This document shows positions 1 to 60,560 of a DNA stretch of 64,000 bases, piece by piece; position 1 is the first letter of the stretch, and each line of letters opens with the position of its first letter. The DNA is from Paramacrobiotus metropolitanus (taxonomy: Eukaryota; Tardigrada; Eutardigrada; Parachela; Macrobiotidae), in the NCBI RefSeq assembly GCF_019649055.1, contig NW_026570371.1:1-64000 (forward strand). Direction: 5' to 3'. A program made the position numbers and the translations under genes. The notes below the pieces were generated by a model, which searched no databases, was not told the origin of the DNA, and saw only the letters and a program-made list of their open reading frames with translations.

Positions 1-1240
1 TCGAACACGTGGGGACTTACGGCACGCAGGTCGGGCCCCAAGGGCAAATGATGCCAAATCAGATGATGCCAAACCAGATGATGCCAAACCAAATGATGCC
101 AAATCAGATGATGCCGAATCAAGGAATGATGGGACAGAACTTCCCATTCCAGCACCTCACAGATGTATGGCCAGAATATGCCCATGATGAATCAAGGTCA
201 ACCGATGCGAAGGTCAGTTCGGATATGGCGGAATGGCCCCATTTCCGAACCAGATGCAAGGATTCCCTAATCAGATGGGATTTAACCTCAGCAAGGCCAA
301 GGGCTATTTCGGACACCAAAACCGTCAAAAGGTCATCGTTTCCCGGAGATAGACAGAACACACCGCGAAGGGGCGGTCAGCCGTTTACTCCGAGGGCGTC
401 GACGAGTGGCCAGGGAACGAGAATGGAGATCCCATCACTTACACCAGTCCGAATCCACTCGCCAAGATCGACTGGAAGTATTCCGTGGGCAGTGTTAAAT
501 GCACCCAGATTCAACGACCCGATCACAGAAACGGATCCGCAGTACAACATTGTGATGGATCCAAAGGTCACCCTCACAGAGGAGGAAAAGAAGGCTGTGG
601 CGGAGTTTAATGAAAAATGCCGCGAGTTCGTCCAGCTGCATAACGATATCAACGATAATCAGGATCAGTACAGGACGGCTCGAAGAACTCACAAGATAAC
701 CAGGGGAACCCACCTCCACATGAAACTGGATAAACACGAGGCGGAAGAGTTGAGAAAAGAAAGAGGTGTTGAAATCAGAACACTGAAGAACAGTAATCCA
801 GTGCTGCGCAACAGGGAATGGCCAAGCGCAGTAAAGACGATACTGATCTTCATGAACCTTATTCCCCCGGAACCAAAAGAAGAAGAACAGGAGAGAGGAG
901 TTAAAACTCCGGCCGAGGAGAGCCCCACTAAGGAAGAGCATACGGCCAAGCGAACGAGGAATGACCCGTTTCAGCCTCCGAGTGATCCGTTAGTAACTCG
1001 GGAAAGAGAACTGTTGAGAGAAAGGGATAAACTCGACAGAGAAATCATGGAATTGAGGTCTCGTACGGCATCGGCAGTACAATCAGGATCATCGCGTACC
1101 AGCCCGGCGAGAGAAACTAAACCGAAACTGAAATATGAAAAGGTCAACTCCCGGTGGAGGAAGGTCACACCGGTCGAGAAGAAAAACCGAAAGGTCATCC
1201 TGGCGCGAGCACGCGAAGGGGCGCAGCTCGAGAAACAAAG
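1..1240 (+). CDS. Partial, frame-broken charged protein, 5' part of the 1-8 kb coding block
   Basis: The frame is open to the window edge, so the true start lies upstream. Six 15-nt units (about 48-122) encode a Met-Met-Pro-Asn-Gln repeat. A similar Met/Asn/Gln-rich composition then continues in other frames: frame 1 at about 163-205 and frame 2 at about 209-330, after which the first frame resumes near 330 and stays open to 1,292. The later part is Lys/Glu/Arg rich with predicted coiled-coil stretches (about 560-720 and 960-1,080). The product is intracellular-looking, with no signal peptide or membrane segment. I recognise no family. AAAGGTCA occurs at 328, 563, 1139 and 1190. Either the gene has decayed through indels or translation changes frame; the sequence alone does not decide. 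Coding nature is likely, function unknown. Confidence 0.5.
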
Positions 1241-2977
1241 TGTAGATCGCACACCAGAGTTTTCCGGCTTAAAAATAAAACGGAAGGAGTAGTCAGCGCA
1301 TTCCTAGTCCATAGAGACACTGATCAACCAATTCCATCAATGGGGGAAGGAGCTGACCGAGCCGCATATCAGCTGATGTGCAAAGAAGCCAGCGATACAG
1401 CAGAGCAAGCGATTGGTGAACTCATTAAGTCAGAACGGAATAACCCGACCATGATAGGAAGAATCCTGAGAGACCTGTTGAGAGAAACAGCATTCAAAGA
1501 GAAGGCGAATATCATGGTCACAATTGATGCGAAGGGTAGAATGGAGAAACAACTCTATAACCCGCAAGGCGAAAAGATTGATATGCTCTCGCATGGAGCA
1601 TATCCGGCGTCAGGTGCGAAGGGGCACGAGGCGGAAGAAGAAGGAGAATGGGAAGATGTAGAAGATGAAGAAAAACCGCCATACAGAGAGACGGTGTGCA
1701 GATGTCTAAAGGTCAACTATCACATGGCAGACGGAGACGAAGGTTATGTCCACGGCTTTATTATCGATCCGACAACATACATGCCGATCCCCACAGCAGG
1801 AACGAATGCGACTCCTGAAGAAGTGGAATGGCAAACACAGAAGTCGTATAGTGACCTTAATAAGATACTCAATCTCCTGCCAGAGGACCAGCGGAATGAC
1901 ACTGCTGCGAATATACAAGCAGTGATGAGTATCCTCAGGCACAGGGCCGAAGAAGACCGAGCCTATTTGGTAGTCTTTTGGAAAGATGACGAAGGAAAGT
2001 GGAAATCACTCTTCGACTCCAAGGGCAAAGGGCTCTATTTTCCGGAAAACTTCCAATTTAACCCGACGGCGGAAGAGCACATTAAATATTACTCTGGTGA
2101 CCCGCCGGCCCAAGCCGAAGCCATGGAGACTCAAGAAGAAATCGATAGGGGATCACCATGTCGACGCATCGACTATAAATTCATGAATCAAGAAGGAAGA
2201 GAAGGGATCCTCAGAATCGAAGTGGTCGATCCTCAGACGGGACAAATGGTGTCAAACGCAGGCTTCACTCCAGAAGAGGAAGAAGAGGAAACATCAAAAC
2301 TTATGCAAGAGGTGGAGCAAGTACTGCAGGTCCTGCCACAAGAGGAAGAGCGCGAAGAATTCGAAGCCATAACCGAAGTATTGGTTAACGTCATGATGCC
2401 AAGAGCACGCCAGGACGGAGCATACATGCGCTTGACCCATATTGACCCTTTCCATGGAGAAGTGTACAAGCAGCTTTACACTTCGAGAGGCGAGACACTG
2501 ACCAAGCTGTCGGGGGCGAAAAAGGTCAGGAAACCGGCTGAGAAGGGTCAGCCCGAGCAAATTAAAGCAGAAGAGAAAGGTTACGAAGAGAAGAAAGAAA
2601 CGAAAGGTCAAGAGACTAAGGAAAAATCGCGAGAACGGGAGATCAAGAAGGAGGAACATCCGACTCCCGTAAGAAGCGCGGAAAGGGTCAAAGCGATAAT
2701 TGCCGGAGAAGTTCAACCGCACTCATGCAACGACCCTAAATGTGAAAGATGTCAGAAAGACGAAGAGAAAAAGAAAGAAGATCAGAAGAAGAAAAGGAAA
2801 CCAGTAAAGGTCACGGCACGAGAAGGTAGCGCCGGTGAAACTTTTGTCAGACAGCCGAAGTTACTGGGAGTTATGAATCGGACTCTGAGCCAGAACAATT
2901 GGCTATCAACGCAAAAGCAGGGTCGTCACAAGCCGAGACCGACGAAGAGAAGGACAGAGGTCAATCACGCAAGGTGA
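1241..2977 (+). CDS. Protein with a 115-residue domain repeated three times, then a Lys/Glu-rich tail
   Basis: The frame is open from 1,154 to 2,977. Three tandem domain copies start at Cys codons near 1,241, 1,697-1,703 and 2,159, about 152-154 residues apart, and end near 1,588, 2,038 and 2,500. Each copy has a Cys-Arg start, a strand ending in Asp, a PIP- or MVS-like turn followed by Gly, a long helical stretch with Leu and Arg spacing, then an Asp...Gly...LY/LF...Gly ending. Acidic linkers separate them. The tail (2,510-2,960) is a charged helix with repeated Lys-Gly-Gln/His triplets and a His-x-Cys-x4-Cys-x2-Cys cluster near 2,720 that might bind metal. The copies are diverged, so the triplication is old. 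I know no family with this pattern. The true start is unclear because the upstream frame enters near 1,140-1,240. Confidence 0.6.
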   Translation, partial: CRSHTRVFRLKNKTEGVVSAFLVHRDTDQPIPSMGEGADRAAYQLMCKEASDTAEQAIGELIKSERNNPTMIGRILRDLLRETAFKEKANIMVTIDAKGRMEKQLYNPQGEKIDMLSHGAYPASGAKGHEAEEEGEWEDVEDEEKPPYRETVCRCLKVNYHMADGDEGYVHGFIIDPTTYMPIPTAGTNATPEEVEWQTQKSYSDLNKILNLLPEDQRNDTAANIQAVMSILRHRAEEDRAYLVVFWKDDEGKWKSLFDSKGKGLYFPENFQFNPTAEEHIKYYSGDPPAQAEAMETQEEIDRGSPCRRIDYKFMNQEGREGILRIEVVDPQTGQMVSNAGFTPEEEEEETSKLMQEVEQVLQVLPQEEEREEFEAITEVLVNVMMPRARQDGAYMRLTHIDPFHGEVYKQLYTSRGETLTKLSGAKKVRKPAEKGQPEQIKAEEKGYEEKKETKGQETKEKSREREIKKEEHPTPVRSAERVKAIIAGEVQPHSCNDPKCERCQKDEEKKKEDQKKKRKPVKVTAREGSAGETFVRQPKLLGVMNRTLSQNNWLSTQKQGRHKPRPTKRRTEVNHAR

Positions 2978-4042
2978 TGGAGGAAGCGATGACGATGCAG
3001 CCGATCTATGCGTCGACGATGAAAGAACGCAAGGACAAGGCTGATAAAGAGAAGAAGAAAAGGGATACTTCTGTCGAATCGGCGAAATCGGCGAAATCGG
3101 AAGTCAGCGTCGCATCGTCGAAGTCGTCAATAAAAGAGAAAGATACAAGAAAGAAAGGTCAGAGAGACACAAGAAAATCTGACCCCAGCTTGGCAGATTA
3201 TATGGATGCACAGAAGAAACCAAAGGTCACTGCCAGGAACACTCTTATCGGACGAGTCGATGCAGCTGACATCGTGAACTGGAGACCTGTTGAAGGGGAC
3301 AGCGAATTGGATTACACGGACGACGAATACGATGACCGATTCTTCGTCTGCGAGTCTAACGAACAAACAACAATCGAAGAAATTGACGAAATCCTCATCG
3401 GAGCAACAGCAGATTGGGGAAAGGCGACGAGATCAGTTACATCGAAATTCAGAAAGGACGTCAAGGCGTATTGCGAAGAGACGAATAAAAGACTGCCGCA
3501 GAGCAAGTACAACGCCGTCCTGGAATACGCAAGGAGCACAGGAAAAGTCCTCCAGAAACATCCGAAATATGGTTCCAAAGCGAAGCTGTACATCACCGGG
3601 AACAATAATGAGCGGAAGTTGGCTACAGCAAACGCAGATATCCGAGAACGGATTGAACGCGCCATTATCGGGATGTGCAGTCCGATGGGCACGACGAAAC
3701 ACCGTATGGCGCAGTTCATTAATGGAGTCTGGAGCAAAGAGAAAGGAAATGCTTCAATCATCGAAAGGTCACGGAAAAGCGTTAACACAGATGGTAGCGG
3801 AAAACAAGCTGCACACCACAAACCCTCACAAAGGCGTGACTATCAGATACAGTTCACTGAATGCTGTACCAGAAGAGCTGAGACAATACAAGAAGGAAGA
3901 GATGAGCGAAGATACGACCATTATATTGGATCCCAGACTCGATGCGGAATGCCCCATCTTGAGTCAGATCAAATTGACAGTGAAAAGCGACAACTTCATC
4001 GAAAGAGAAAGAAGAGCAAATAGAGGAATCAATGGTCGTTGA
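2899..4042 (+). CDS. Charged unknown protein with a folded middle section, frame change near 3,764
   Basis: Frame 1 runs from 2,899 to 4,023 and overlaps the preceding frame by 79 bases. The N-terminal part is Ser/Lys rich (SAKSAKSE-type repeats, 3,080-3,130). A more ordinary globular stretch follows (about 3,240-3,760), with acidic Asp-Tyr-Thr-Asp-Asp and helical segments. From the AAAGGTCA at 3,764-3,771 the better coding signal moves to frame 2 (to 4,042), with VTIRY- and IILDPRLD-like segments. From about 4,005 an acidic coil continues in frame 0 to a TAG at 4,075-4,077. No family is recognised. Continuity of coding character through frames points to one original long reading frame that is now interrupted, or to unusual decoding. 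Confidence 0.45.
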
Positions 4043-4126
4043 AGAAAATGTCGTTGAAGAAAAGAGGCAGAAACGGTAGAGAAGGGGTGAACTGCATGCG
4101 CCGAAATCGGCTGAAGAGCTATTGCG

Positions 4127-4939
4127 TTGGTGGGACCACCGAAACCGATGTCGGTACAGGAAGCACTTGCCGCCGTACGTAAGTGGATCCAGTTCAGCAG
4201 TGGATACCCAAAAGATCCACCGATCGACAACAGCACTGACATCTTAAAGGCAGCACACGAACAAGCGACGCAAGGAAAAAACGACGTTAAAGGTCATGCT
4301 GCGGAAGAAACAGCTAAAGGTCATCAGACTTCAGCGCAAAGTGGAGTCGAGGAGAAAGGTCATCCGAGCTCAAGTCATGGAAAGATGGGGCAGCCTACTG
4401 ATCGCAACCGCCGGTAGAAGCTACAGCAAGTGCAGTCCCCATCGCAGAAAGAGGAGACGGACGACGAGCTAAACGAGAGTAACGTCCCGTGGATGACAAT
4501 TTACGCTGCGATCGGTGCAGCCCCGTCGAGAGAAATGGATAAGACGGATATTTCAAAAGCAGTCGGCGACGCCGGAGTCAGCAGGACACAAGTCAACAAG
4601 CTCATAAAAAAGAGCGTATAAAGAAGGACGAACACGAATCAACCGAACTATTACATTCCTCCGGCGGAAGAACAACGAAAGCAGAGACCGAAACCAGGTC
4701 CCCAGGCTTGGAAGGACGCTTTGACTCAAGATGCCATGCAGAACATAGGCGGGACTAACGGGTTCACCGCAGAAGACCTCTCCAATTACATGGCAGTTCA
4801 GTATGATTCCGGCCAAGAAAATATGAACGGGGATCGGTTCAAGATCCAGAACGCGTTGGACAGTTTGGTCAAAGACGGAACCATCAGAACATGGAAGAAG
4901 GATGGAGTCGACCAATACGACTGGATCGCGAAAGCGTAA
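4127..4939 (+). CDS. Two winged-helix-like modules with in-frame stops
   Basis: Frame 2 carries three open pieces (4,127-4,417, 4,430-4,621, 4,721-4,939) separated only by TAG at 4,415 and TAA at 4,619; the sequence between the pieces is still protein-like. Module one (about 4,480-4,618) has a helix, then a KTDISKAVGDAGVSRTQVNK-type recognition-helix pattern, as in Z-alpha/winged-helix domains. Module two (4,721-4,936) has helix, Gly-rich turn, helix, ALDSLVKDGTIRTW helix-strand, then Asp-Gly wing and Tyr-Asp-Trp, the usual winged-helix ending. Three Lys-Gly-His triplets at 4,289-4,362 come from AAAGGTCA motifs. Nucleic-acid binding is inferred from fold pattern only. Two nonsense codons suggest decay or separate small genes. 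Confidence 0.45.
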
Positions 4940-5379
4940 ACGGAAGAACATGTGTGGGAGGAAGGTCCACCACACAAAAAGAAGAATCAGAATCAGAAAA
5001 GAGAAAGAAATGAGCAGACCGTAGTTCTCAAATTACTTTCGAACCACACTCTGCAAAAAGAGTTGAATTAGCGAAGGGGCTATTTTACTTAGCGAATGGG
5101 CTAAGATGAGAAAGGTCACCATACAGTTGAGAATGGTTCAGTTAAAGAAGGATGACAAAGGTCACCATGAAACAGCGAGAAAGTCTCAGCTCAGCACTGC
5201 ATAGCCTAGTTACCATAGGCGTAAAAATAGGCGTTGAGAAGGGTAACGTAAAGGTCATAGCATTATAATGTTTGAGATTGCAGGCTGAGACATCAAAATG
5301 ACTGAACGGAGCCAATCCAACCAGAACGCGGCGAAAAAAGGGACAGCGACCAGCTGTAAAAAAGGTCACGGGAGACCCT
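4940..5379 (+). other. Spacer between coding pieces, four AAAGGTCA copies
   Basis: No standard open frame longer than 60 codons is convincing here. Frame 2 stays free of TGA to about 5,150 but has TAA/TAG at several points. AAAGGTCA lies at 5,111, 5,157, 5,250 and 5,361, the densest set outside coding sequence, so the motif is not merely a codon effect. Confidence 0.5.
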
Positions 5380-6890
5380 TTGACGAATTACAACGAGGAC
5401 TGCCCGGACTGTAAACGAAACAACATCCTATCGAACGAACGTTTCCCATGCTGGACTTGCGTGGTGGCAGTACCGAACCAAGCAGTGGTGGTACCAGAAG
5501 AGGCGAGAAGGGGGGTAACCTCGATGTGTTCCGGCATTTGGTTACGGGAGACACATGGATGAAACTGTCACCAGAAGACCGGATGATTTTGGAAGATAAG
5601 TACAGAATGTGGGTCGGACGTAGACCGGGTTGGGATATCACCCTTGAACCTCCGAAAACACCAGAAGCGGATGCGTTCAGAAAGAAGTTTGAAGAAGACA
5701 CGATGAGAATGGTACAGGAAAAGCGCGAGGCAGAGCGAAAGCGGCTAGAAGAAAAGGAAAAAGCTGCGGCAGAGAAGGGTTTAGCCGAAGCAGCTAAAGG
5801 TCACGCACCTACCCCATTCGCGATATTGAAGAAACAAGATGAAGGAGAAGCAGCTGTAATCAGACAGTCGCTGATACAGCAGATTGACATCATCTTGCAA
5901 GATCCTCTCGCGGTATCGAAAGAGGAATACAAAATCTTCCTGGATGAAAAGGTCAACCTGACGAAAGGAAATAGACCGTCCCAGGTTATCAAAATTGCGA
6001 TCGAAGAACGAATCGACAGGATGAGAAATTTCCGAAAACGGGAGAAAGATGTGGTTGAGGCCCTTCGGAACTTCAAGAAAGAGGAGTTCAAACGCCCAAA
6101 ATCACCTCAAAGAGATGATCGCAACCGCGGCTATGAAAGGTCGTCAGACCGCTCCCGAGAAAGGTCATGGGACAGACATCATAACGACCGATACAGTGGA
6201 TACGCGAGAGATACGCGTACGTCGGAGCAAAAGAGAAGGGATGAAGAACGTATCCGACGTGAAAAAGAACAAAGAGAAAAGCGCCGCCAAGAAGAAGCGG
6301 AAGAAAAGCGCTTGGCGGAGGAATACAGGAAAATCAACGAAACCTGTAATAGGCAGCAGGAGAAGGAACGGGCTGCTAAGGAAACGCAAAATCGCGATTT
6401 ACAGAATCGAGAAGGAAGAAGTGAAGGCTCGAGTAAATCAACATCCTCAAAGGGGCCATATGATCAAGAGTGGGTCCAGGATAACCTGAACATGGCTGAT
6501 TATGAGTTTGGAGACAAATCCTACAACAGCAAAAGGTCATCCAGCTCAGAAAGCCACCGCACGCCTAAGAGCCCGCGCAGAATGCAGTCAGTAGTCCATT
6601 CTGTTTGTTCAACGTTCAAGTCAGCCGAGAAACAACCGGAAAAGCAATTGGACGAGGTCATGGAATGCAGCCCGTCATCCTCGAATGTCATTGAAGTTCA
6701 CGGAGACGAGGATATGCGACCGTCAAGACGAAACATCATCTTCGATCTTGAGCATCAGCTTACAAGCGCGGAGATGGCGAGTAATGCACCGCCAGAATCA
6801 GATTCAGAGAAGGGCGACCAGAAAGGTCAATCAAAGGTCACCGCTCCGAGGAGACATTCCTCCAAACCATCGAGCTGGTATATGAAATGA
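5380..6890 (+). CDS. Zinc-ribbon-like N-terminus plus long Arg/Glu/Lys coiled-coil protein
   Basis: The N-terminal part is read in frame 1 from about 5,380 and has two CxxC pairs (CPDC and CWTC, 15 residues apart), a zinc-ribbon-like start. At a run of six G (about 5,511-5,516) the coding signal passes to frame 0, open to 6,890. It contains a helical domain (5,560-5,760), an Ala/Glu/Lys coil, a helical section (5,830-6,060), an Arg/Asp/Ser region resembling RS-type linkers (6,100-6,240), a long Arg/Glu coiled coil (6,230-6,400), then a Ser-rich acidic tail. Likely nuclear or RNA-associated by composition only. Seven AAAGGTCA copies occur (5,361-6,833). The stop TGA overlaps the next ATG (ATGA at 6,887). 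No family is recognised. Confidence 0.5.
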
Positions 6891-7405
6891 ACGACATCAT
6901 GGAGCAAACGAACGAGATCTGCCGTTCGGTGGGCATCGCGCCAGATAATAAGGATGAATTCGACAAAGTTTATTGGCTTCTCATGAACTTGCGCCAGGTC
7001 ATCAACGACTCGGGATACGCGAAAGAGTACGAGTATGGCCAATGGGAAGACCTGATCATTACGCAAGAATCGGCGAATCTTCATTACTTCCCGACGAGAG
7101 AATGCGGCCTTGTCAGTTTGATCGACCTGAGTCTCTTGGAAACACCGTTGGACACACCGGATCCAACAGGAATGACACAGTTCCAGTATAGAGACATCAA
7201 GGAAAGACGTCTGCACGTGGCACAATTTGTGTTACGCCATGTAAATCCGGCGTTGAGACTCCTCGCAGGAAGGGCTGCGTTAGGATTGTTGGTCAAACCA
7301 GATTCTCCGCCTGATCACCGCGCCACGATTCAGAAGATTTTGCAGCAAGGCTCGGCCATTATGAATCGCATCACCAGCTGCGAAAGAGCGCTCAAAGAGG
7401 TATAG
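6887..7405 (+). CDS. Unknown helical protein, ATGA overlap with the preceding frame
   Basis: A 172-residue frame starts at the ATG of an ATGA overlap. Its frame is already protein-like upstream from about 6,833, right after the paired AAAGGTCA motifs at 6,822 and 6,833, so it may be the continuation of the preceding product rather than a new gene. It has well-spaced hydrophobics, aromatic residues and a globular composition (Trp, Tyr, Cys), with a helical C-terminal half containing an Ala/Leu-rich segment near 7,250. It is followed after its TAG by frame 1, which is protein-like from about 7,392. No family is recognised, and no signal peptide or membrane segment is seen. Confidence 0.45.
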   Translation: MNDIMEQTNEICRSVGIAPDNKDEFDKVYWLLMNLRQVINDSGYAKEYEYGQWEDLIITQESANLHYFPTRECGLVSLIDLSLLETPLDTPDPTGMTQFQYRDIKERRLHVAQFVLRHVNPALRLLAGRAALGLLVKPDSPPDHRATIQKILQQGSAIMNRITSCERALKEV

Positions 7406-7446
7406 AGATACCGCCAGCACTGACCGCGCAAGTTATAAAGCTGGGA

Positions 7447-7998
7447 ATGCCTGTTAAGAACTTTAACTCCTCGGAAACGGCCAAGAGGCAGCTGAAGGAC
7501 GTCCAGAGAGCAATGAATTTCGACGAAAGTCTGAGACGTCAAGCGAAAATGCATGCCCACCGATGTGCGGAAAGAATCAGAATCACGATGGGTACGAGAT
7601 TCATCCAGCCATCCGACTTCGTCTATGATTTCATCCAAGAAATCAGTGTAAATAGAAGCAGCTACCGTCCAGAGCTTGCGAGACAGCCGCAGGAAAATGA
7701 AATGAAACGAAGAGGACGAAGAAACCAACAGCTGCATTTGGACTATGTCGAATTGTGCAAAAGGTCACGGGATAATCCATACGATGAAGGATTAAAAGCG
7801 CGAATGGTCGACGCTCGAGATCATCTGATCCGTATTCAGCGCAGACGTGACCGAAATCGGCACAGTGGTGCTAGCAGCCGGAGCGAAGGAGACGAGCTGC
7901 CTGAGAGGGAAAAGGAACCTCGGGATCGAACGTCTGATCAGAACGAAAAACAAAGACGTTTCGATCGGAACCGCGACAATGGTTCAAATGATCAGTGA
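7447..7998 (+). CDS. Basic C-terminal protein of the 1-8 kb block
   Basis: The frame is open from an ATG at 7,447, but the same frame is protein-like back to about 7,392 (Ile-Pro-Pro-Ala-Leu segment), so it probably continues the previous product after a frame change. The first 110 residues are helical and basic. The C-terminus is an Arg/Asp/Ser-rich tail (about 7,830-7,995) similar in style to the RS-like linker at 6,100-6,240. One AAAGGTCA lies at 7,760. The stop TGA (7,996-7,998) directly abuts the first inverted motif TGACCTTT at 7,999. Function unknown; nucleic-acid binding by charge is only a guess. Confidence 0.5.
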   Translation: MPVKNFNSSETAKRQLKDVQRAMNFDESLRRQAKMHAHRCAERIRITMGTRFIQPSDFVYDFIQEISVNRSSYRPELARQPQENEMKRRGRRNQQLHLDYVELCKRSRDNPYDEGLKARMVDARDHLIRIQRRRDRNRHSGASSRSEGDELPEREKEPRDRTSDQNEKQRRFDRNRDNGSNDQ

Positions 7999-8020
7999 TG
8001 ACCTTTAGGGCATCGCTGAT

Positions 8021-8430
8021 GTGCTAGTTACGGCCACCAGTCGGCAGCACGAGAATGGTAGTGAAGGTATAGTATTAGGGCGAAGGAGACGTAACTTTTT
8101 GAACTGTCATACCGTTCGTGTTTTGTTGTTTTCAGAATTTTGTTGCAGGGGATCAAGGTGATCTGCAGTATGGGGAGTTACGGAGGTCATCCGGCCCTCG
8201 AAGCAGGAAGAGTAACGGCGTTAACCGGCCTTCCTCATTACATTTAAACGTCACTTCTAGAGTGTAGTTGCGGCCTACTTAGTCGGCACACTCTTAAGGA
8301 ATGTCAGAAGCCACAAGGGTGAAAAGAGAAAGAGTTCAAGAAAATAGGGTAAAACTTTCAGATGTTGAGGTTACGGCGATAACCGGCCTCAGAAGAAGAG
8401 GAGTTACGGCGTTAACCGGCCCTCGAACCT
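8021..8430 (+). ncRNA. Array of six related stem-loops downstream of the last ORF
   Basis: Six hairpins share a conserved internal sequence but have different paired stems. Two (8,021-8,050 and 8,260-8,293) have the form stem, AGTTRCGGCC, loop, AGTCGGC, stem, with stems GTGCT/AGCAC and GAGTGT/ACACTC. Four (about 8,174-8,199, 8,207-8,234, 8,366-8,391, 8,399-8,425) have the form stem, (A)GTTACGG or AGTAACGG, about six bases, CCGGC, stem, with stems GGGG/CCTC, GGAAG/CTTCC, TGAGG/CCTCA and GAGG/CCTC. Stem bases change in pairs while the loop stays constant, which is the mark of a structured RNA. A role as protein-binding or packaging signal is inference. Confidence 0.6.
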
Positions 8431-8798
8431 GGTGAGGAAAAGAAGGAAAGTGCGCGTCAATTAGCGCTAAAAGAAAGGAAAGGATGTGCGACAGAAGAAA
8501 ATGGTTGAAAAGATGGATGACCTTTATCAGGGAGGCAAGCAGAATTGCTTGAAAGCCAAAAATCGGCTAAGTCCCTCCATGACCTTTAATATGGAACTTA
8601 TGACAGAAATGGATGACCTTTTGGGTTCGTCACCTCCCAATTGAGTCGCACATCAGACGAGAAAGGATGACCTTTGAGAACTTCACTGCTCAAGAGAGTC
8701 ATCAAGAAAAAGAGAATGACCTTACCAGGGAGGAAGCATTAAGCTTGTCTTTCAAGACGTCCCTCCATGTCCAAGAGGAAGAATCTCATTTTGACAGA

Positions 8799-8926
8799 AG
8801 TCGTACTTTGATACGCAACTAATCCAAAGATGAAGCATCAGTATTCCAAAGTCGTACTTTGATACGCAACTAATCCAAAGATGAAGCATCAGTATTCAAA
8901 AGTCGTACTTGATACGCACCTATTCC
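8799..8926 (+). repeat. 51-bp direct repeat, two and a half copies
   Basis: The unit begins AGTCGTACTTTGATACGC and is present at 8,799-8,849 and 8,850-8,900 with one or two differences. A third partial copy starts at 8,901 and is cut after about 25 bases. It lies in the 3' non-coding part of the 1-9.1 kb block. Confidence 0.85.
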
Positions 8927-9017
8927 TACAAGCGGATCTCATTTGTGATTAAAAAGATTGCTCAAAAGAGCGGAATGGATCAAAGCGGATTACGGTTGAC
9001 AGGACCCAGTGACCTTT

Positions 9018-9880
9018 ACGAGTCGGAGGATCCTAGTCGTTTTGATTATGAATTCTGTTGATATTTTGTACTGTTTTACTTTTGTTTCGAGATCTCTTTA
9101 TTCACACATGTAATTGGAATTTGTGATGTTAAAAGGAGATAAAATCTCGATGTTTTATTATGCGCACAGACGAGCCGTCAAGGATCCCAAGGAATTGGAC
9201 GTGGATTATGCTTCGACGGAGCTCAGCCTCCCTCCCAGAGGCATGTGAGCGCAGGCGTACATGCGTACACCCTCGCTTTGGCAGTCTGTTGTGTTTTGTT
9301 GCACGCCCGCCTACGCGTGGCGAAAGCATAGTGTTCTGCGCGCACCCGCATCATGTGGCGGCTACGTGCGCACTTTTCACGCTTGCTGCAGTCAGCAATG
9401 CGGAGTTGTCCACGAGGAAATTCTATCGAATTTAGTCTGGTTATAAATTTCTAGCAATCACGCCGTTTCTCGCTTTCTGTAGCGTAGGCGTATTTATAGC
9501 ATTGCTAGTCTTTTTGGTAGGCAGAATTCCGTCAATTCTGTTCCTACGCGTGAACCTTCATCAGGTCCACGCTCATAAGGTGAATGCTATAAAGAGGATC
9601 CCCCTGTGCTATAGGTCACATTCAAGTCACAGGGCACTGGGCGGTCACATTCAACTTTTAAGAGCAGCACCTGGACCTTGCTCAGATTGTTACAAAGAAT
9701 CACGAAATTTTGTGATTGTTTGCTAGTCTGATTGAACGAATGTATGACGAGCGGCATTGTGCGTGCAGCCAATCACTCACTCCTGCAAACAATCTGCAAC
9801 CGCCCACAATCCTGCAATTCGCAAAAGAATCGACGACTGTAACGGACTATTACCGTGTGGTGATTAAAACGATTGTATAA
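9018..9880. other. 3' boundary of the octamer block and intergenic sequence
   Basis: The last octamer is at 9,010-9,017. From about 9,060 the composition turns AT/T-rich (Ttt-rich stretch 9,040-9,110) and the purine bias of the coding block ends. The open frames here overlap on both strands and show no domain, signal peptide or splice pattern. I see no gene. Confidence 0.4.
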
Positions 9881-13914: not shown

Positions 13915-14520
13915 TTACAGTATTAATTTTAGACTGGAGGCATTCAGCCGTCTTTTTGGTCGAATCAAGAATTTTTTAACGTGACTACCACGAGTACACT
14001 GTAAATTGTTCGCCTCATCTAAAATCAGTCCGTACTTCCCGTACCGGAAGCGGATGCTCGCGGTCAGGCTGGCGGCGATGGTGCTGACCACCAGCTGGAC
14101 CACGCCCACGGCGATGAAGAAATCGGTGAGGGGCTGGTACAGGCAGATGTCGGCGTGGCGCATGATGAATTGTGGGGTGTATAAGTATAAGAAGGGACGT
14201 TGGCCCAGCCGCAGGAGGTGGATGATGTTGAGGGCAAAGAGGGCACCGGCGCCCAGGGCGCTGAGAACAAATGAGGACGATGTAGGCGGTGGGGAGTGCG
14301 GGGCGCCAGTGGTTCTGCTTGCTGTCCTGACTGAGAGCGGGGAGGTGGAGGAAGTGCGATTTGCGCAGCCGGAGCCCGGTGACCCCCGTGGCCAGGAAGA
14401 GCAGGCCCACCCAGACGCTGAAGGACAGCAGGAAGTGGCGCATTTCCGCTGGAAATGCAGCAGAATGATGCCGGTAAGTATGTTGAAAGAAGGTATTAGT
14501 ATACCGGCACGTTTGCAACT
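13915..14520 (-). pseudogene. Decayed duplicate of exon 2 of the four-pass membrane protein gene
   Basis: The minus strand aligns closely with exon 2 of the gene at 37,991-38,853. Identical stretches include MRHFLLSF, GLLFLATGVTGLRLRKSHFLHL and VVQLVVSTIAASLT. A one-base length difference near 14,280 (after the IVL codons) throws the frame; the second half (third and fourth membrane helices) continues in another frame. The splice acceptor used by the intact copy (AG just before the TTACTGG-like start) reads AT here. After the GKYG codons this copy jumps straight to a sequence that in the intact locus lies beyond the stop codon (about 37,850-37,885), so the PPxY tail is missing. It is therefore a deletion-bearing duplicate and probably non-functional. 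Confidence 0.75.
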
Positions 14521-26311: not shown

Positions 26312-29300
26312 ATGGATGAGAAAAAAAGACGGCTGATTTGTGAACTACACAAAGGTGGCTACAAATGGCAGCAAATCATCGATCGCGTAGGCATTAGCCG
26401 TGCCACAATCCTAAAAGTTATTAAAGCTGAAAAATTATCCCGACGACGCACGAAGCTGAATGAAAGCCTCAGAAAAGAGATTCTAGAGTTAGTTCGCAAA
26501 GGAGATCAAAGTACGGCCGAAATAGCGAAGCAGTTCAATATTTGCACGGCCAGCGTGGATCGAATTCGGCTGAAAGCCACCGAATCGCCAGTCACGGAAG
26601 AGCAGAGGAAAATGATCCTTCAAATGTTCCATCGCGGCTGCTCAAGGGCGGATATTATACGTGAGGTTAAGGTTGACGGCGATGCAGCATATGCTGTAAT
26701 TAGAAGTGCTCTGGCCGCGCAGCGGAAACTCTCCGTTAGCCAGTCGCAACAGGAAGAAATTCTGAACTGCTTCGACGAAGGCCGTACTAGGGAGCACATC
26801 TTGAAGAAGTTCGGCATCTCCGAAACGACTTTAAAGCGGGTGTTGCAGCAGAAAGGGAAAACGTTCCAAGAACGTTCCCTAAAAAATTATGAGGAGCGAC
26901 AAGCGTCTGTTCTGAAACTCCGTGCGAAGGGATTAACAATGACGGCCATAGCTAAAAAGCTGAAAATAACCACTGGAGCGGTATTCAATATTCTGCAAAA
27001 GAACTGTGACAAAGCAGTGAAAGCACCCATCGTGGCTGATGGGCTCCCTTTGGGCAGGGTTACCCTTGAAATGGATTCGAGTACTGACGCCGGAGAACAG
27101 GTCGTCCGGAATCCGCCCATTATCGAGAGAGGCGATACCAACATAGCTGTTGGGTGCCGGAGGTCAGCTCGGGTCACAGCCTTGCAACAAAGAAATCCAG
27201 GGTGCAAACGCAAAAGTGTTTACGCAGCACATACTTCCGAATCAGAGGCCTCTGATGCAGAAACCTCTGAAGCAGAAAGCGATGCTTCCGATGCAGTTAT
27301 ATCAGGAGAGGAAACAGAGACTTCTGATGCGGAAATTTCCGAACCAGAAACTGACACTGATGCGGAGGATTCTAATACAGAAACCGAGATTTCCGGTGTG
27401 GGAACTTCCGGATTTGAATCAAGTTGTCTTGGTGATGGTCCGACCGCACAGCAACCTGCAGTTATTGATGGCGCTTCCGTTGGATGCGGTTCTACGCACC
27501 AGGATGGCGAAGCACACCACGGAAATTCTACAGCTCAACCCAAGCATCACAAGATGAACGAGAAAAACAAGCAGCTGATCTGCGAACTTTACAAAAGCGG
27601 CAGTTCATGGAAGGAAATCACAAACCGCGTGGGTATCAACATTATAACACTTCACAAATTTATCAAGGCAGCAAAGTTGCCCAGACGGCGTACCGGGCTG
27701 ACTGAACTTCAGAAAAATGAGATCACAAAGCTAGCGCGCGAAGGAACCCTCAGTCCCGAAGAAATTGCGAAGCGATTCAGCATTAGCGTCCTGACCGTGG
27801 AGAGATACCGCCGAATGACCGTTACTAATGCGCAGAAGAAAAGTATCCTCCAACTGTATCATCGTGGGAGCTCAATAATCGAAATTATGAAAGAGGTTAA
27901 GCTGGGTGAAAAAGTCTGTAAGGCTGTAATTTCCCGCATCTCGGTCCAGCGAAAGAAGATCTCTGTTAGCCGGAAAAAGAAAAAAGAAATTCTGAAATGT
28001 TTTGAAGAAGGCCTCGGTGGACTGTACATCCAGGAGAAGTTTGGAATCTCAGAGAATACTTTAAATTGGATTTTGCTACAGAATGGGAAATCCCTTAAGG
28101 ACCGCTGCCGAAACAGCTACCAGCAGAGACGAGCAGATATTCAGAAACTGCGCGCGGAGGGGTTGACAATGAGAGCAATAGCGAAACAGCTGAAGCTGAG
28201 CGTTCGTACGATAAGCATCATTCTGAAAAAAAACTGGGAACAAGAAGCGATTGCGCCGGAGGTGCTGTTGAGCAGGAAGTCACCTGCGATGGATTCCAAT
28301 AATGTCGCGGAAGAAGAAGTCGACCTGACACCGCGAGTTGATGAGGACGGTGGCAGCAACACGGTCCATGGGCACCGGAGGTCAGCTCGGTTAGCCATGC
28401 AACAGAGAGTTCCAGGCTCTGAATGTGAACGTTGCTGTAATTCCGATTGTGTACATACCTTCGAGTCTAATCCGGACGAAAGAACTAGCAATGAAATCTC
28501 AGAAGAGCCGAGCGTGTGCACTGCCGCTGTAAAAAATTTACCTTCAGCCACAAGTATAAGTCTAGAATCGACCACTACGAACACGCATGGTCTGCAAGAT
28601 GCAAGAACTTCCGAAGCTCATGCACTTGAATCGACGAGGAGTCTCGATAAAAGTCCAATCGCACAGCCAGCGGCAGTTACCGATATGGCCCTGCCAACCA
28701 TGACTGTCGATGACGAAAATCAGGACGATACAGCGTCTCAATGCGGAAGTGCATCAATGGTTACACATAGCGGAGATTCTGTGGCTGGCTACATACAACA
28801 CGGCTCACCAAATTTAGGTTCGTCGGTGTTCGGCAGTGAAACCGCAAGGATGCCGGGATCTGTTGAGGTCAATGAACTGCGTGACATGGGCAGTCAGAAT
28901 GGTATGGCGTATTTTTATAGTGTTATTTTTACAATAAGTGCATGTAGCTTCATGTAGCCGCACTGCCGCGTTATTATGAAGTACATGTAGCTACATCATA
29001 TTTTGTACATGTACAGAGTATGTACATGTAGCTGCAGCCTGCATCTTCCTGTAATACCTGCTGAAATTTACTGGTAATCAAGCTAAACAGACAATCTAAC
29101 AATACGTAGGTTTAAGTTTAATGCGACAACGTTTAAGTTTAACAGTTGTTAGGCATTTTGTTATGTGTAGTGGTTATTGCCAAATAAAAATACGTAAGTC
29201 TCCACACTCGCGAGATGTTGATGATAGCACTTGTACAGCGCTTACTTGTTAGCATCTTCAGTCTTAATTTGCAATCACGAAAGCATACAATCTTTCTGCA

Positions 29301-37990: not shown

Positions 37991-40900
37991 TCAAAAACTA
38001 GCGCGCGCAATCAGCGGAGCTCCGGACCGGGAACGCGTCATACTGCCAGCCGTGGGAGTGCGGCCGTTCTCCTGCCCGCGCGCCGGCACCCGTTCGCGGG
38101 AGGCGCTGCGACTACGTGACTGCCGCATGCTCCGACACAGATCAATCCCTTCCCAGGCGTCTTCGTAGGACGGAGGTGGCGGCAGCACCGGAATCATCCC
38201 ACTTCCGCCGCTCGTGGCGTAAAACGCCCGATTTCGATTACTGGAAGTCGGGGCGTTACGCAGCGGCACCGGGGGCTGGACCAACGAAGATTGCGAGTAC
38301 GAGCGGACCCTCCGTCCCGTCTCCCCACCGCCGCGTTGGGAACCCAGCGTGGAGCTCGGGTAGTCGATAAAGCTGCGGATGCGCCGCAGGGAGGAGTTAT
38401 TGGAGCGACTCCCGTACTTCCCGTACCGGAAACGGATGCTCCCGGTCAAACTGGCGGCGATGGTGCTGACCACCAGCTGGACCACACCCAAAGCGACGAG
38501 GACCCCGGTGAGGGGCTGGTACAGGTAGATGTCGGCGTGGCGGAGGATGAACTGCGGGGTATAGAAGAAAGGTCGCTGGCCCAGCCACAGGAGGTGGACA
38601 ATGTTGAGGGCAAAGAGGGCGCCGGCGGCCAGGGCGCTGAGGACGTTGAGGACAATGTAGGCGGTGGGGAGTGCGGTGCGCCAGCGGTTGTGCTTGCTGT
38701 CCTGACTGAGATCGGGCAGGTGGAGGAAGTGCGATTTGCGCAGCCGGAGCCCGGTGACCCCCGTGGCCAGGAAGAGCAGGCCTGCCCAGACGCCGAAGGA
38801 CAGGAGGAAGTGGCGCATTTCCGGTTGGAGGTGCAGCAGAATGATACCAGTAACTAAATAAAAATAAGCCGTGAGTGAATTGGCGCCTGTACAACTGTGA
38901 GCCTATCGCCATAATATAAATCGTGCAGATTCCGTGATTTCGTTTTATTTTATCTTTCTATTTTAACTTCAAGGTACTGTAATAATAAGTGTCATTAGAT
39001 TTTATTTATGTACTAGTACATTGACTCCGCTAAAAAGAAGCGCAGAAATACTGTAATCTGTTCGCAAATTGTGGGTTTATTTGCATACATACTCACATAA
39101 TGTGTGTACGAGTACGCTTAAACTGGCTTTAATTACTGTAGCCGCTAGATGAAGTTAGACCACAGAGTCTGGTGTACGGAAAAATGCAAGCCCGATATAC
39201 GGACTTTGCTCCATGCAAAAATGTTTTTGATTTTCCTCTGCTGGTACCAACATTTGACATGTTTTACTGTTCTTTGCTATTTTTTAATTCTTTGCAACGA
39301 AAGATATTTCTTTTAAGAGCACAATGACACAGCTCTGACAGTTTGCTATTTATAAATCTGATTTGTTGTGGTTTCTGGGGTGCCCCTGGCAGGGGCAGCA
39401 CAATACTAAATGCAATGAAAAGTGTGCGCCGCCCGGTGGGAGGAAGGCTCGTGCTCAATGCCTGATGAGTGGAAGGCAGCGCCCGGATCTAACAGTGGTC
39501 TCACTTCATCTAGCGGCTACAGTACTGCATGTAGGAAACTGAAGACGAAGAAATTGTACGTAACACGATGTTGAAATTTAAACAATAAAAAAATTTATTA
39601 ACGAACAATTAACCGTGAAAGCGCATTAAACTGGTGCGATTTATCTGTACCGACAGTACCGTATACGATATATATGATTTTTTACGTAATATTTATACTT
39701 CTACGTATAACAGTACGATTTCTACTTTTATGAAACTAGTACGGTATTTATTTACGATATTTATTTACTTTAAACTAGTGCGATAAATAGTACGACACGA
39801 TTTAATGTCTATTATTAATGTTTTATTGTCTAAATTTTGGCTGTCAAGTTTTGTAGTGTACCAGCGCTCGCAACCGCAGTATACTTAAGAAGTAGTGTAC
39901 TTGGGTGGCTGTTGCGTATTAGAGACAACATAGTATTTATTTATTATTTATTATTACCTAGTTTTAATAATAATAATTAAAGGCAGTAACATGGGGATCG
40001 TACTCGGTAAAATCGGTGTCAACTGGCAAGTAAAAATCTGTTTTCCTTATAGCTGCGGTGTTTATTATGGTACCAACAAGGTACATGACAGTCATGGCCA
40101 AGAGCAGATTTTTCATCCCGGAAACTAGTCATCGTTTTGGTAGCACTTGTAGGGTTAACCAAGCATTTATAATACCGCTTGTGTAATTGTATTTTAATGA
40201 TTTTGCCGGTAAGCAGCTTAATCACCACAGCCACTACTATACTGCCGACAACCTGCGCAAAGCGATGACCGGCTGAAGTGTCTAATGTCTATATATAGTT
40301 ATCAACCAGGGCTACATTCTCCGAAAATTCTAAACGGTTTATCAATATTATGAGTCAAACATAACAGGCATATAGAATTTATCACGCAAGCGTCGTCGAT
40401 TAACGAATAAATGCAAAACCAATGCATCGGACCTTTAATAAGACTTAGTATCATGTCACAAGTACAAACTTAGTACTAGAAAACGTTGCTAAATGCTAAA
40501 TGCTAAACCAATGCTAAATGCTAACCGTTATTATTAAACGCGGTGACAAGGGATAATTTCGATCAATTTAATTACCTTTTTTAAATAGATTAATCTGTTT
40601 TTTTTAAGGAGTGTTCACTCGTACGCGCTCTTGATTACCGCATTCTACTTTACCGGATAAGTGTACGAGTACTTTTCGATTTAAGATTTTAAGCGTATCG
40701 ATCCAGGTTTAGTGAAATGTGTCAAAGAGGCGCCGCCACCCGCGGGCGGAAGGCGGTACATGCTCTTTCTTTTAAACCGTATTCGGGTAAACTGTCGAAA
40801 TTTGCAAATTGATAAAATCGCAATCAATGACAAACGCTGAACTCTATATCTGCTCCAGACATGCTACATAAAATACTGCTTTTAAAGGAAACATACGTGT

Positions 40901-57278: not shown

Positions 57279-60200
57279 ATGGGCCAAACAGAAAGCGCCT
57301 TGGCCAAGGTGATGCCATACACCAGCCATGAGCAACTCCAACGGAGAATGCTCAGTCCTATGGACAGGCGCCAGCAAAATGACTATGCCAAGCCTCGCGG
57401 GAAGAACTACGCCACGCGCGAACCAACGGGGCCTTACGGGCTTCGTAGCGCCAGGCCAACCAGTTCTGACCCGGACGAGCCAAACTCGGCCGGCTCTACG
57501 AGTTCGGTCGAGGCCAGGGCCAGGCGGGACAAACAAATCCTGCCGGCTGATCTGGAGACCAGCGACGAAAGTCTGGACGCCACCCGGGACGACACATTCC
57601 AGGAAGCGTCCGACGAGTTGTCCGAGGCCAACCAGCCTCAGGACAGCCAACCTGGCGCCGATAGGACGGCCCAGGCCAACAGTGTCCCTCGGGACTTGGC
57701 ACAACAACCGGCCATTCCTGGCTCGGGCCAAGTCCAACTTGAGGCGCCAACGGCGGCCACAAGCGAGGACAAGACACGCACCGATGGACCAGGGCCAAAC
57801 AACTTGGCCCGGTCCAACCTTGATGTCCAGGATCTGACAGCACGTCCAACCCTACCGGGCTTGGACCAGATCCAACCTAAGGCACCAACGGTGGCCAAAG
57901 GTGGACGCAAGGCCAAGGGCCAAGCCAAAAAGGCTGGTCCAAAGGCAGATGACCAGTGCCAACAGCCCGTGAGTCAGTCGCCAATCATGTTTGAGATCGA
58001 TGGCTCAACCCATACAACGCCATCGCCGACCAATGACGTCATCGGCGCGTCTGGCCCGTCCAAACCGGACCGAGAGCCAATTGTGGACCTGGCCCAACTT
58101 AATAGGGCCACAGCCAGGATGGACCTTAACCAGCCCTCCTGGGACACAAGCTGCGCCAACGTCAGCCCGCCAAAGCTGATCCAGGCAACCCGGCCCGAGG
58201 AGATCGACGAAGTCGACCAATTTCGGACCACAGTACGGGACCTGACTAAACAGCTAGCGGACATTGCAGAAGCAGCCCTGCTATCCGAACGCTGGATGCA
58301 GGACGAGATCTGCAAGCACACAGACCTTGCGTCCAAATCGGACGCAGAGGCTAAACGTGTCTCGGCCATACTGGCCCAGACCCAACTTGAGCTAACCCAG
58401 CTCAAGTTGTCACCATGTCCCAATGCTGAGCGAGACCAGCTCGGCAGGACAATCCACAGCCTAGAAATGGCTGTGGCGGGACTCGAAGCCTTGCTCACCT
58501 CTACGAGGGCTGAACTGGCCAAAGCCAAGGACGACTTGACTGCGGCCCGGACCACAATCGACGAAACCGATTCAGAGGCGGACCGCCTCTCGAATGAAAA
58601 TGAGCGTTTTACCGACGACTTGGCCAACCTGCAGGACGAAATCAATCGCCTGCGCAACGGCTATAACCTCCTTTATGAGAGCCATCAAAATCTCATGAAG
58701 ACAATTCAACAAGGAGGACTGTTGAGCCAAACGGTTCAACAGAAGGAGGCACAGAACGTGCAACTCCAGCAACAAATTGTTGCCCTCCAGAGCCAGCTCA
58801 AGACCGAATCAACCATTCGGGTCCAACTTGAGCAAAACAGCGCCATTGGACATCAAAACTTTGTCCAATTGGAGCAGGCCTTCAACCAAGCCAAACAGGT
58901 GATCCAGGGCCAACATGACCGGATCATCACATTGGAGGCCAACAACGCCGGCCTGGTCAAAGATTACCAGGCGGCCACCCAACGTATAACCGAACTCAAC
59001 GAGGACCTGGAAAGGCTAGGCACGGAAAACGCCTGCTTAGACGCGGAGAAATCGCATCTCGAGAACTTACATTCTGAGATGTCCGCGGAACCACCGTCTT
59101 ACCATACCTTTCCGGACCCGGATACACAGCGTCGACAAGAAAAAGTCGACGAGGCTTTGCGGCAGGGCCAACGCTTCTATCGCGAGCCAGTGTATCACCA
59201 ACAGAACTACCATGTTAACATGGCTGTGGAAGGACCATCGGTTGGACATCCCCCAACGGGGCCAACCATACCCACGCCTCCCAGCCAGGTGAACCAGGGA
59301 TCATCCACGGCGACAGTAACGCTGCCGCCACCACCAATCCCGGTCACCACAACAGCCACTATCGGTCCAACGACGATAGTGACACCCGCAACGCAGACTC
59401 ATCCGTCTACGTCAAGCGGGCCAGGCTTTGACCCAAGCCAGGCAATACCCAGCCACAGCTACTTTGGGTCAAGGCCACAGTATCCGTCCTTGTACCCATC
59501 CATATTCCCGAACATGGACTTTAACTTCAGTCCACATCCGGCCACAAGCCAGGCTCACACCAGCGGTATGGATCCAAACCGGACCAACCCGCTGAGCCCA
59601 ATGTCCGGGCCACCAACCACACAAGGACAGATGGGAGGCCAAAGTGGTACACCAACGGTGCAACCACCACTAGTAGGCCAACTAAGCCTATTTGGCCCTC
59701 CTACCACGGCGGCAGCCCCAACGGGCCAAGCTCAGCCACAGATGGGCCAAACCACGCCCACGGGCCAAAACGTGCCCAACCCACCAGGCATACCGCCAAC
59801 AGCGGCCATGCCACCAGGACCAGCAGCCCAACCAGGCCAGGGCCAAAATGCGCCCATGTTGGTCCAGCTCCCGAATGGAGCATACGCATGGATGGCGTCC
59901 AACGGGGCCATCCAGCTTATACCGGGACAGCCAATGTTGGCTCAACCCCAGCAGGTGCCGCAGATACCAATGCAGCTAACACCTGCCCCGTCGCCACCGG
60001 CCAGTCCTTCCCTCTCAACCAGAGAGCAAATCAAGGAAATGGCCCAAGAGATGGGAAAAGCCACCGCGAGAGCTCAAGTCCGCACCGTGTTGCCAAAATT
60101 TGATGGCAACAAAACAATGGTGAAAGGATGGCTTGCACAGGTCCGACGGATCTGTAAGCAGTCGTCCGATCTGAATAAACCAGATCCGGACTTCATGAGC

Positions 60201-60390
60201 CGCATTTACATGGCCCTATCGGACCCTGTAAAAGAATGGTACACTGGCCAAGCCAACCGCGAAGACGAGGACGGCTGGACAGTGGAAGAGTGGCTCCAGA
60301 AATTCGCCACTCGATACGGCGATGATAATCAGCAGGCAACTGCCATGGGAGAAATTACCCATCGGTACTATGATCCAGACTTGGCCCATC
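57279..60390 (+). CDS. Very long LTR-retroelement Gag, 3' truncated
   Basis: Open from ATG 57,279 through 60,482, but the Gag part ends near 60,390. It starts MGQT, an N-myristoylation signal as in some retroviral Gags, implying membrane targeting. It continues as a Pro/Gln/Asp-rich disordered region (to about 58,200), a long coiled coil (about 58,200-59,080), and a Pro/Gln/Thr-rich linker with repeated Gly-Gln-Pro patterns (59,250-60,010). A retrotransposon-gag core follows (about 60,080-60,330: LPKFDGNKTMVKGWLAQV, then a ...SDPVKEWY... segment and an EEWLQKFATRYGD segment). About 1,035 residues before the core ends is far longer than usual. At 60,390 the sequence switches to an unrelated palindromic repeat, so no zinc knuckle, protease or polymerase remains. 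Confidence 0.7.
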
Positions 60391-60560
60391 TTTCAGGTGA
60401 GGTGAAAATTTTTCCCATTTTTCCCAGCCCACCTCATCTTTTAGGTGAAGATGAGGATGAGGTGGGAAAGAGCCGTAGATGAGGTGAGGTGGGCTGAATT
60501 TTTAAAAAATGGGATGAAAATCTTTTATGGAAATGGGCTGAGAATGGGCTGGGTTGCTTC
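60391..60560. repeat. GAGGTGGG-rich inverted repeat replacing the end of gag
   Basis: CCCAGCCCACCTCATC (about 60,424) is mirrored by GATGAGGTGAGGTGGGCTG (60,479), with further GATGAGG units between and CCCATTTTT/AAAAAATGGG outside. Followed by GGGCTGAGAATGGGCTGGG. It marks a breakpoint or an inserted foldback sequence. Confidence 0.7.

Follow-up and report, generated by a model that had tools for sequence, protein, structure and literature searches.

Why should a single octamer be scattered in one orientation over the first kilobases of a tardigrade contig and, from a stop codon onwards, in the other? This question is raised by the window analyzed here, i.e. the whole stretch of 64,000 nucleotides from base 1 of contig C151 (NW_026570371.1) of Paramacrobiotus metropolitanus, whose assembly totals 169.8 Mb (genome size 170 Mbp in an excerpt of PMC11191345). 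Judged from its sequence, the window carries a copy, with broken frames, of a giant Ty3/Gypsy-type long terminal repeat (LTR) retrotransposon of 24.65 kb, of which the 3' part is present. The octamer followed by C, T or A is a candidate site for a protein that recognizes a specific sequence in double-stranded DNA, most likely a monomer-class nuclear receptor binding in the manner of the NR4A receptor response element (NBRE), a reading to which we assign a probability of about one half.

The octamer and the element that carries it

An exact recount reproduced the numbers of the first-pass annotation. As outlined in Table 1, 25 copies of AAAGGTCA start between positions 328 and 7760, where its reverse complement TGACCTTT is absent, and are followed by six TGACCTTT starting between 7999 and 9010, where AAAGGTCA is absent. 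The other 55 kb of the window contain one AAAGGTCA and one TGACCTTT (35658, 45609), indicating no spill-over of the octamer into host DNA there. Among the 8-mers of the window body, AAAGGTCA shows the strongest over-representation (25 copies versus 0.74 expected from a second-order Markov model), corroborating the claim of a pattern far beyond chance. Codon use, which the annotation had dismissed as the cause, was ruled out by the excess over synonymous-codon shuffling: 200 rounds yielded a mean of 2.85 and a maximum of 7 AAAGGTCA versus the 23 seen in open reading frames (ORFs) of at least 200 aa. These 23 copies occupy all three phases (8/6/9), four copies lie in a spacer, and 21 ORFs taken from elsewhere in the window contain neither AAAGGTCA nor TGACCTTT.

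The window copy is related to the giant element via its last ORF, its 3' region and its LTR, only the 3' part of the element lying inside the window. Copy C213 measures 24,650 bp and is bounded by identical 353-bp LTRs (13947-14299 and 38244-38596) with the 4-bp target-site duplication GTGT on both flanks. Its 5' LTR is directly adjoined by TGGTAGCAGAGCC, a candidate tRNA primer binding site that may resemble initiator tRNA-Met. In copy C101 a 1465-aa ORF with a retroviral-type protease is followed by an ORF with reverse transcriptase (RT), RNase H, H2C2 and rve (integrase), which is the Ty3/Gypsy order. Of the 3,242 relatives of this pol ORF, the best 120 are proteins carrying an RT domain, an integrase domain or both; those outside this species mostly show 40-48% identity across about one third of the query. 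Further ORFs of 1620, 827 and 892 aa matched no Pfam family at E 0.05, and no env family was found among the eight ORFs scanned at this threshold or the seven element ORFs in the window (E 0.01), a search which a divergent env would escape. With an internal region of 23.9 kb the element is near the 25 kb of planarian Burro, which, like Ogre of plants, is a giant Ty3/Gypsy-like LTR retrotransposon of 16-30 kb with extra coding DNA (excerpt of PMC6431247). Unlike in Burro and Ogre, the LTR is only 353 bp long, the scanned extra ORFs are without Pfam families, and octamer saturation is not mentioned in that excerpt. Among the top open-access papers listed, no title or abstract opening describes an element with octamer-saturated coding sequence.

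In total, C213 holds 69 AAAGGTCA and 33 TGACCTTT. The forward/reverse counts for body, leader and 3' non-coding region are 68/12, 0/15 and 1/6 in C213 and 51/12, 0/11 and 1/6 in C205. For C101 we obtained 69/11 in the body, 1/5 at the 3' end and 2/11 in the leader part, the cut of which takes in some coding sequence, and for the truncated C90 21/2 in the body and 1/6 at the 3' end. The annotated absence of TGACCTTT from the body is therefore true of the window copy but not of C213, C205 and C101. In the C213 body both words are similarly strongly enriched (68 versus 0.85 expected for AAAGGTCA, 12 versus 0.17 for TGACCTTT). Synonymous shuffling (200 rounds) lowered the forward word from 64 to a mean of 6.5 (maximum 16) in C101 and from 60 to 7.2 (maximum 14) in C213, and the reverse word from 11 to 0.36 and from 9 to 0.27, respectively (maximum 3 each).

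Two further measures were set aside. The fraction of permitted positions used (0.76-0.78 forward, subfamily B) is circular, since it is the octamers that give rise to the permitting amino acids, and was dropped as evidence. The spacing in C213, determined for 68 of the 69 forward sites (site 24000 omitted), is no more regular than random (coefficient of variation 1.05 for forward and 1.00 for all body sites).

Genome-wide, the octamer occurs 42,562 times (21,195 + 21,367) versus 15,522 (7,593 + 7,929) for a control word with reversed letters, and paired TGACCTTT 18-26 bases apart number 656 + 650 versus 2 + 9 for the control. Provided that a full copy carries about 100 sites, the octamer excess of about 27,000 would correspond to about 270 full copies. 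Within element bodies the word is enriched in both orientations, in roughly the ratio that an A-rich sense strand gives. The annotation had also listed bacterial markers. Bacterial DNA uptake sequences, Chi and KOPS are short, dense and partly oriented words as well; such a marker misfits a eukaryotic LTR retrotransposon, the enrichment does not extend to the rest of the window, and the bodies of subfamily B are enriched in both orientations.

The word is maintained while its sites turn over

Retention of the octamers was determined for 29 kin loci compared with window positions 3948-8387; they represent fewer than 29 independent copies, as L018/L020, L019/L023 and L021/L022 share contigs. In the 14 loci at 70-79% identity (L011, L012, L015, L019, L021-L030) 4 to 12 of 11 to 15 alignable octamers were retained, whereas other 8-mers were retained at 0.09-0.22. 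At least eight octamers, i.e. half to four fifths, were kept in 12 of the 14, the weakest retention being that of L024 (4/14) and L027 (4/13). Retention of octamers also exceeded that of other 8-mers in every one of the 15 nearer loci (0.87-0.99), least clearly in L009 (9/15 versus 0.53). Evidently, evolution protects the octamer word itself and selection maintains the sites.

Individual sites are nevertheless gained and lost by substitution. The last ORF of subfamilies A and B shares 40% amino-acid identity and two common coding sites, the others differing by substitutions or gaps in aligned codons. Twice, a site of opposite orientation takes the place of another, at a distance of 11-24 columns. 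Subfamilies A, B and C share four identical 3' sites. When all octamer columns of the A-B alignment of the 3' region are taken together, their identity (46/64) equals that of the columns outside octamers (348/479), because the other sites turned over and one was misplaced by the alignment.

These data also bear on a neutral origin, in which the word would have spread without function via template switching, slippage or duplication. The leader arrays, with a period near 29 bp, probably grew by duplication and would fit such a by-product. Sites, however, arise by substitution in unlike contexts and in all codon phases, comprise 121 forward and 43 reverse flank clusters, and are retained far above other 8-mers, which disfavors a neutral by-product; we regard it as very improbable.

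Orientation, the ninth base and a candidate reader of the word

Orientation was compared with a first-order composition model with the octamers masked. The model predicts 78-88% forward sites in the bodies, and the observed orientation fits composition in the window (p 0.07), C213 (0.27), C205 (0.65) and C101 (0.17). The leader and 3' non-coding regions are reverse-oriented, opposite to their own composition (p 1e-7, 1.6e-4, 0.018 and 0.0016, on the assumption of independent sites). Counted as flank clusters, subfamily B leaders contain 15 reverse and no forward sites and 3' regions nine reverse and one forward, while the body sequences of the window copy and of four B copies contain 96 forward and 14 reverse. 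Consequently, a strict strand code fails in coding DNA, whereas the ends are truly oriented. The annotation, with its strand-oriented octamer that flips exactly at the last stop codon, was partly right on orientation: the leader and 3' ends are one-sided beyond composition, the coding bias is not clearly so, and the flip at the stop is a property of the window copy and its close kin; in C213 (subfamily B) the 3' TGACCTTT cluster starts about 750 bases past the last stop (37553 versus 36796).

Oriented ends would be expected if, as the annotation had considered, the words paired in RNA: UGACCUUU of the leader or 3' end would bind body AAAGGUCA, within or between molecules, and thereby compact or circularize the 24.65 kb RNA or mark it for packaging. 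End and body words are exactly complementary, and both the composition-defying ends and the flank-clustered counts of subfamily B (15/0 and 9/1) are consistent with this proposal, as are same-sense paired TGACCTTT about 17-20 kb upstream of the last ORF, presumably in leaders, in subfamily A at C1:2178583, C1:2498858 and C3:1435009 (among the matches listed). Single-mismatch variants give a divided picture. In four related bodies pooled, G-U-compatible forward variants (outside position 1) number 31 versus 7.6 expected, other transitions 11 versus 11.9. By locus, forward variants without a perfect relative lean likewise (wobble 23 over five types versus non-wobble transitions 5 over three), those that have such a relative prefer wobble only slightly (28 over five types versus 13 over three), and reverse sites of all loci show no such preference (3 over three types versus 12 over five). 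As a test of RNA pairing the wobble spectrum is thus supportive when pooled, mixed by locus and, altogether, undecided. The octamer word is identical in all subfamilies seen, so that body and end words do not co-vary.

The base next to the octamer was determined for loci obtained by clustering element pieces by their flanks, excluding L001, L004, L008 and any site close to the end of a piece. On the 3' side of AAAGGTCA, 121 forward loci gave C 60, T 32, A 27 and G 2; on the 5' side of TGACCTTT, 43 reverse loci gave G 22, A 17, T 4 and C 0, corresponding to C 22, T 17, A 4 and G 0 on the motif strand. This ninth-position rule is mirrored in both orientations and therefore points to a protein reading double-stranded DNA. 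It is not accounted for by base pairing of the octamer, which offers no reason for an avoided G at position 9 of AAAGGTCA or an avoided C at position 0 of TGACCTTT. The pairing option thus keeps its complementarity and its oriented ends but leaves this rule aside, and we treat it as a tentative alternative, improbable on balance. Apart from these loci, a satellite at G000:C1:2537724-2538368 was observed with eight AAAGGTCAG, i.e. the octamer followed by the otherwise avoided G, spaced about 91 bases.

The same rule bears on a second RNA-based explanation. A host or Gag-like RNA-binding protein might recognize AAAGGUCAH in sense RNA, the word serving as a multivalent mark for packaging or export and the end TGACCTTT being a separate matter. 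The bodies do contain predominantly forward sites, and multivalent packaging marks would be plausible for a very long RNA. Against such a protein, TGACCTTT in the C213 body is enriched as strongly as AAAGGTCA and obeys the same position-9 rule, which makes this explanation doubtful and, in our view, quite unlikely.

The nuclear-receptor monomer half-site, which the first-pass annotation had named, has become the best-supported reading. AAAGGTCA has the same eight bases as the NBRE (excerpt of PMC7901948), and the JASPAR-derived NR4A2 consensus AAGGTCAC carries the favored C as its ninth base (excerpt of PMC9067626). Unlike an ordinary NBRE, the word is present in about 100 sites within one element. 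The genome contains 63 matches to zf-C4 (receptor zinc finger), counted exon by exon; 12 stretches covering 13 of the 63 were translated, one of which is closest to NR5A2/SF-1 and another closest to ERR, and a second ERR-like DNA-binding domain was judged by eye. NR5A and ERR also use AAGGTCA-type extended half-sites.

From this we infer a nuclear receptor as the reader and, likewise, the effect of its binding. The giant Ty3/Gypsy element has amassed its sites in leader arrays, across the coding region (where both orientations occur) and in the 3' non-coding region, and this load is maintained by selection on the element. Receptor binding would most likely keep all 24.65 kb of an inserted copy in open, transcribed chromatin and tie transcription to cells with active receptor, the leader array acting as enhancer or insulator; as a possible side effect, the roughly 27,000 extra sites may titrate the host receptor. 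Transposons carry transcription-factor sites in their LTRs or leaders. A repeated-word array in a Ty3/Gypsy leader is likewise found in the Su(Hw) insulator of Drosophila gypsy, whose 12 sites lie within a 340-bp part of the 5' untranslated region (excerpt of PMC2374998), compared with 15 clustered sites in the C213 leader. Unlike in gypsy, as described there, the word is a different one and the sites also extend through about 21 kb of coding DNA and into the 3' end.

Several observations weigh against a receptor. No NR4A was recognized by eye in the 12 translated stretches (13 of 63 zf-C4 matches). The C213 LTR is without an octamer, though retroviral enhancers usually sit there, and a reason for receptor sites within coding DNA is not supplied. 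Furthermore, a strand-blind protein does not predict one-sided ends unless the arrays were duplicated or have polarity; such ends are seen in the C213 leader (0 forward, 15 reverse) and in the 3' non-coding regions of subfamilies A (0/6), B (1/6) and C (0/5). In the subfamily C copy L025, 22 forward sites and 1 reverse site make the body slightly more one-sided than its composition predicts (p 0.04). Finally, AAAGGTCAG makes up 4,042 of the 42,562 octamers genome-wide and is thus rare, yet above its own reversed control (2,427).

Alternatively, the element may encode its own reader, e.g. the protein of the last ORF with its CPxC-x12-CxxC zinc-ribbon-like N-terminus, which would bind the octamer in the element's DNA or cDNA. 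The four cysteines are retained in six of six aligned family members, the N-terminus is modeled as helical with moderate confidence (pLDDT 74), and the octamer is constant across the subfamilies seen. The scanned element ORFs, however, are without a Pfam family beyond the protease and pol domains, an octamer reader was found among them neither by Pfam nor, for the 1620-aa ORF, by PDB sequence, and the last ORF has diverged to 40% identity between subfamilies with the word unchanged. We regard an element-encoded reader as quite unlikely. Use of the word at two levels, with a DNA array recruiting a host receptor across the provirus and RNA end words pairing with the body for folding or packaging, is also unlikely.

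If the receptor reading is true, the DNA-binding domain of NR4A, ERR or NR5A would prefer AAAGGTCAC to AAAGGTCAG or to a scrambled word. A single binding word would then shape coding sequence, at about one site per 240 bases and with measurable selection, and the choice of codons and amino acids would be subject to a regulatory code. It would also open to direct test how retroelements of such length maintain their transcription or have their RNA packaged. In a genome of 170 Mb, about 27,000 receptor-type sites beyond the count of the reversed word could affect host regulation.

The window copy and its surroundings

The features of the window copy are collected in Table 1. Its body shows an AT skew of 0.30-0.39 per 2 kb. 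The 480-aa ORF corresponds to a last ORF that is open over about 900 aa in some kin, and matches at least 92 stretches of the genome, a minimum as 89 of 360 candidates were scored. Four P. metropolitanus proteins match one window ORF, the best being 97% identical. At the place matching the spacer, the subfamily B copies C213 and C205 carry three AAAGGTCA. Named RNA families (gathering score) and tRNAs were not found in the window.

Table 1 Features of the element copy in the window, with strand and remarks.
Feature	Position	Strand	Remark
Body of window copy (subfamily A)	1..7998	+	overlapping broken ORFs, A-rich sense strand; 5' side ends at contig end
480-aa ORF, portion of the element's last ORF	5448..6890	+	no Pfam family
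Spacer upstream of last ORF	4940..5379	+	4 AAAGGTCA
3' non-coding region	7999..9243	+	6 TGACCTTT
Probable 3' LTR	9244..9577	+	boundaries inferred: start by analogy with subfamily B TGTGAG, end from similarity stop versus kin copy
AAAGGTCA	328..335	+	exact word search
AAAGGTCA	563..570	+	exact word search
AAAGGTCA	1139..1146	+	exact word search
AAAGGTCA	1190..1197	+	exact word search
AAAGGTCA	1708..1715	+	exact word search
AAAGGTCA	2521..2528	+	exact word search
AAAGGTCA	2603..2610	+	exact word search
AAAGGTCA	2806..2813	+	exact word search
AAAGGTCA	3154..3161	+	exact word search
AAAGGTCA	3222..3229	+	exact word search
AAAGGTCA	3764..3771	+	exact word search
AAAGGTCA	4289..4296	+	exact word search
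AAAGGTCA	4316..4323	+	exact word search
AAAGGTCA	4355..4362	+	exact word search
AAAGGTCA (spacer)	5111..5118	+	exact word search
AAAGGTCA (spacer)	5157..5164	+	exact word search
AAAGGTCA (spacer)	5250..5257	+	exact word search
AAAGGTCA	5361..5368	+	in kin encodes KVT close to the last ORF's start
AAAGGTCA	5796..5803	+	exact word search
AAAGGTCA	5948..5955	+	exact word search
AAAGGTCA	6160..6167	+	exact word search
AAAGGTCA	6532..6539	+	exact word search
AAAGGTCA	6822..6829	+	exact word search
AAAGGTCA	6833..6840	+	exact word search
AAAGGTCA	7760..7767	+	matching site gone in copy L011, where TGACCTTT sits 11 columns off
TGACCTTT (= AAAGGTCA on minus strand)	7999..8006	-	directly 3' of stop codon
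TGACCTTT	8518..8525	-	common to subfamily C; subfamily B instead has AAAGGTCA 24 columns away
TGACCTTT	8580..8587	-	retained in subfamilies A, B, C
TGACCTTT	8614..8621	-	retained in subfamilies A, B, C
TGACCTTT	8668..8675	-	retained in subfamilies A, B, C
TGACCTTT	9010..9017	-	retained in subfamilies A, B, C

Small tandem repeats were seen in the element's coding sequence (15-bp unit, window 47-131) and in its 3' region (51-bp unit, window 8798-8926), and the 3' non-coding regions of L033, L044 and the window also carry repeated TTACGG...CCGGCC blocks and paired GTCGTACTTGATACGCA units. Elsewhere (L046/L047, G000:C27:1303800-1316659) two subfamily-A copies, both apparently 5'-truncated, lie head to tail at a contig end, the first being preceded by a short LTR-like piece in opposite orientation. 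Outside the element, a 1067-aa ORF in a GC-rich stretch with A-over-T skew (window 57279-60482, +) gave weak, sub-cut-off coiled-coil-like Pfam matches, and an 881-aa ORF (window 26312-28957, +) matched 40 Pfam families at E 0.01, many of them helix-turn-helix (HTH_23, HTH_7), so that it is apparently a run of helix-turn-helix units.

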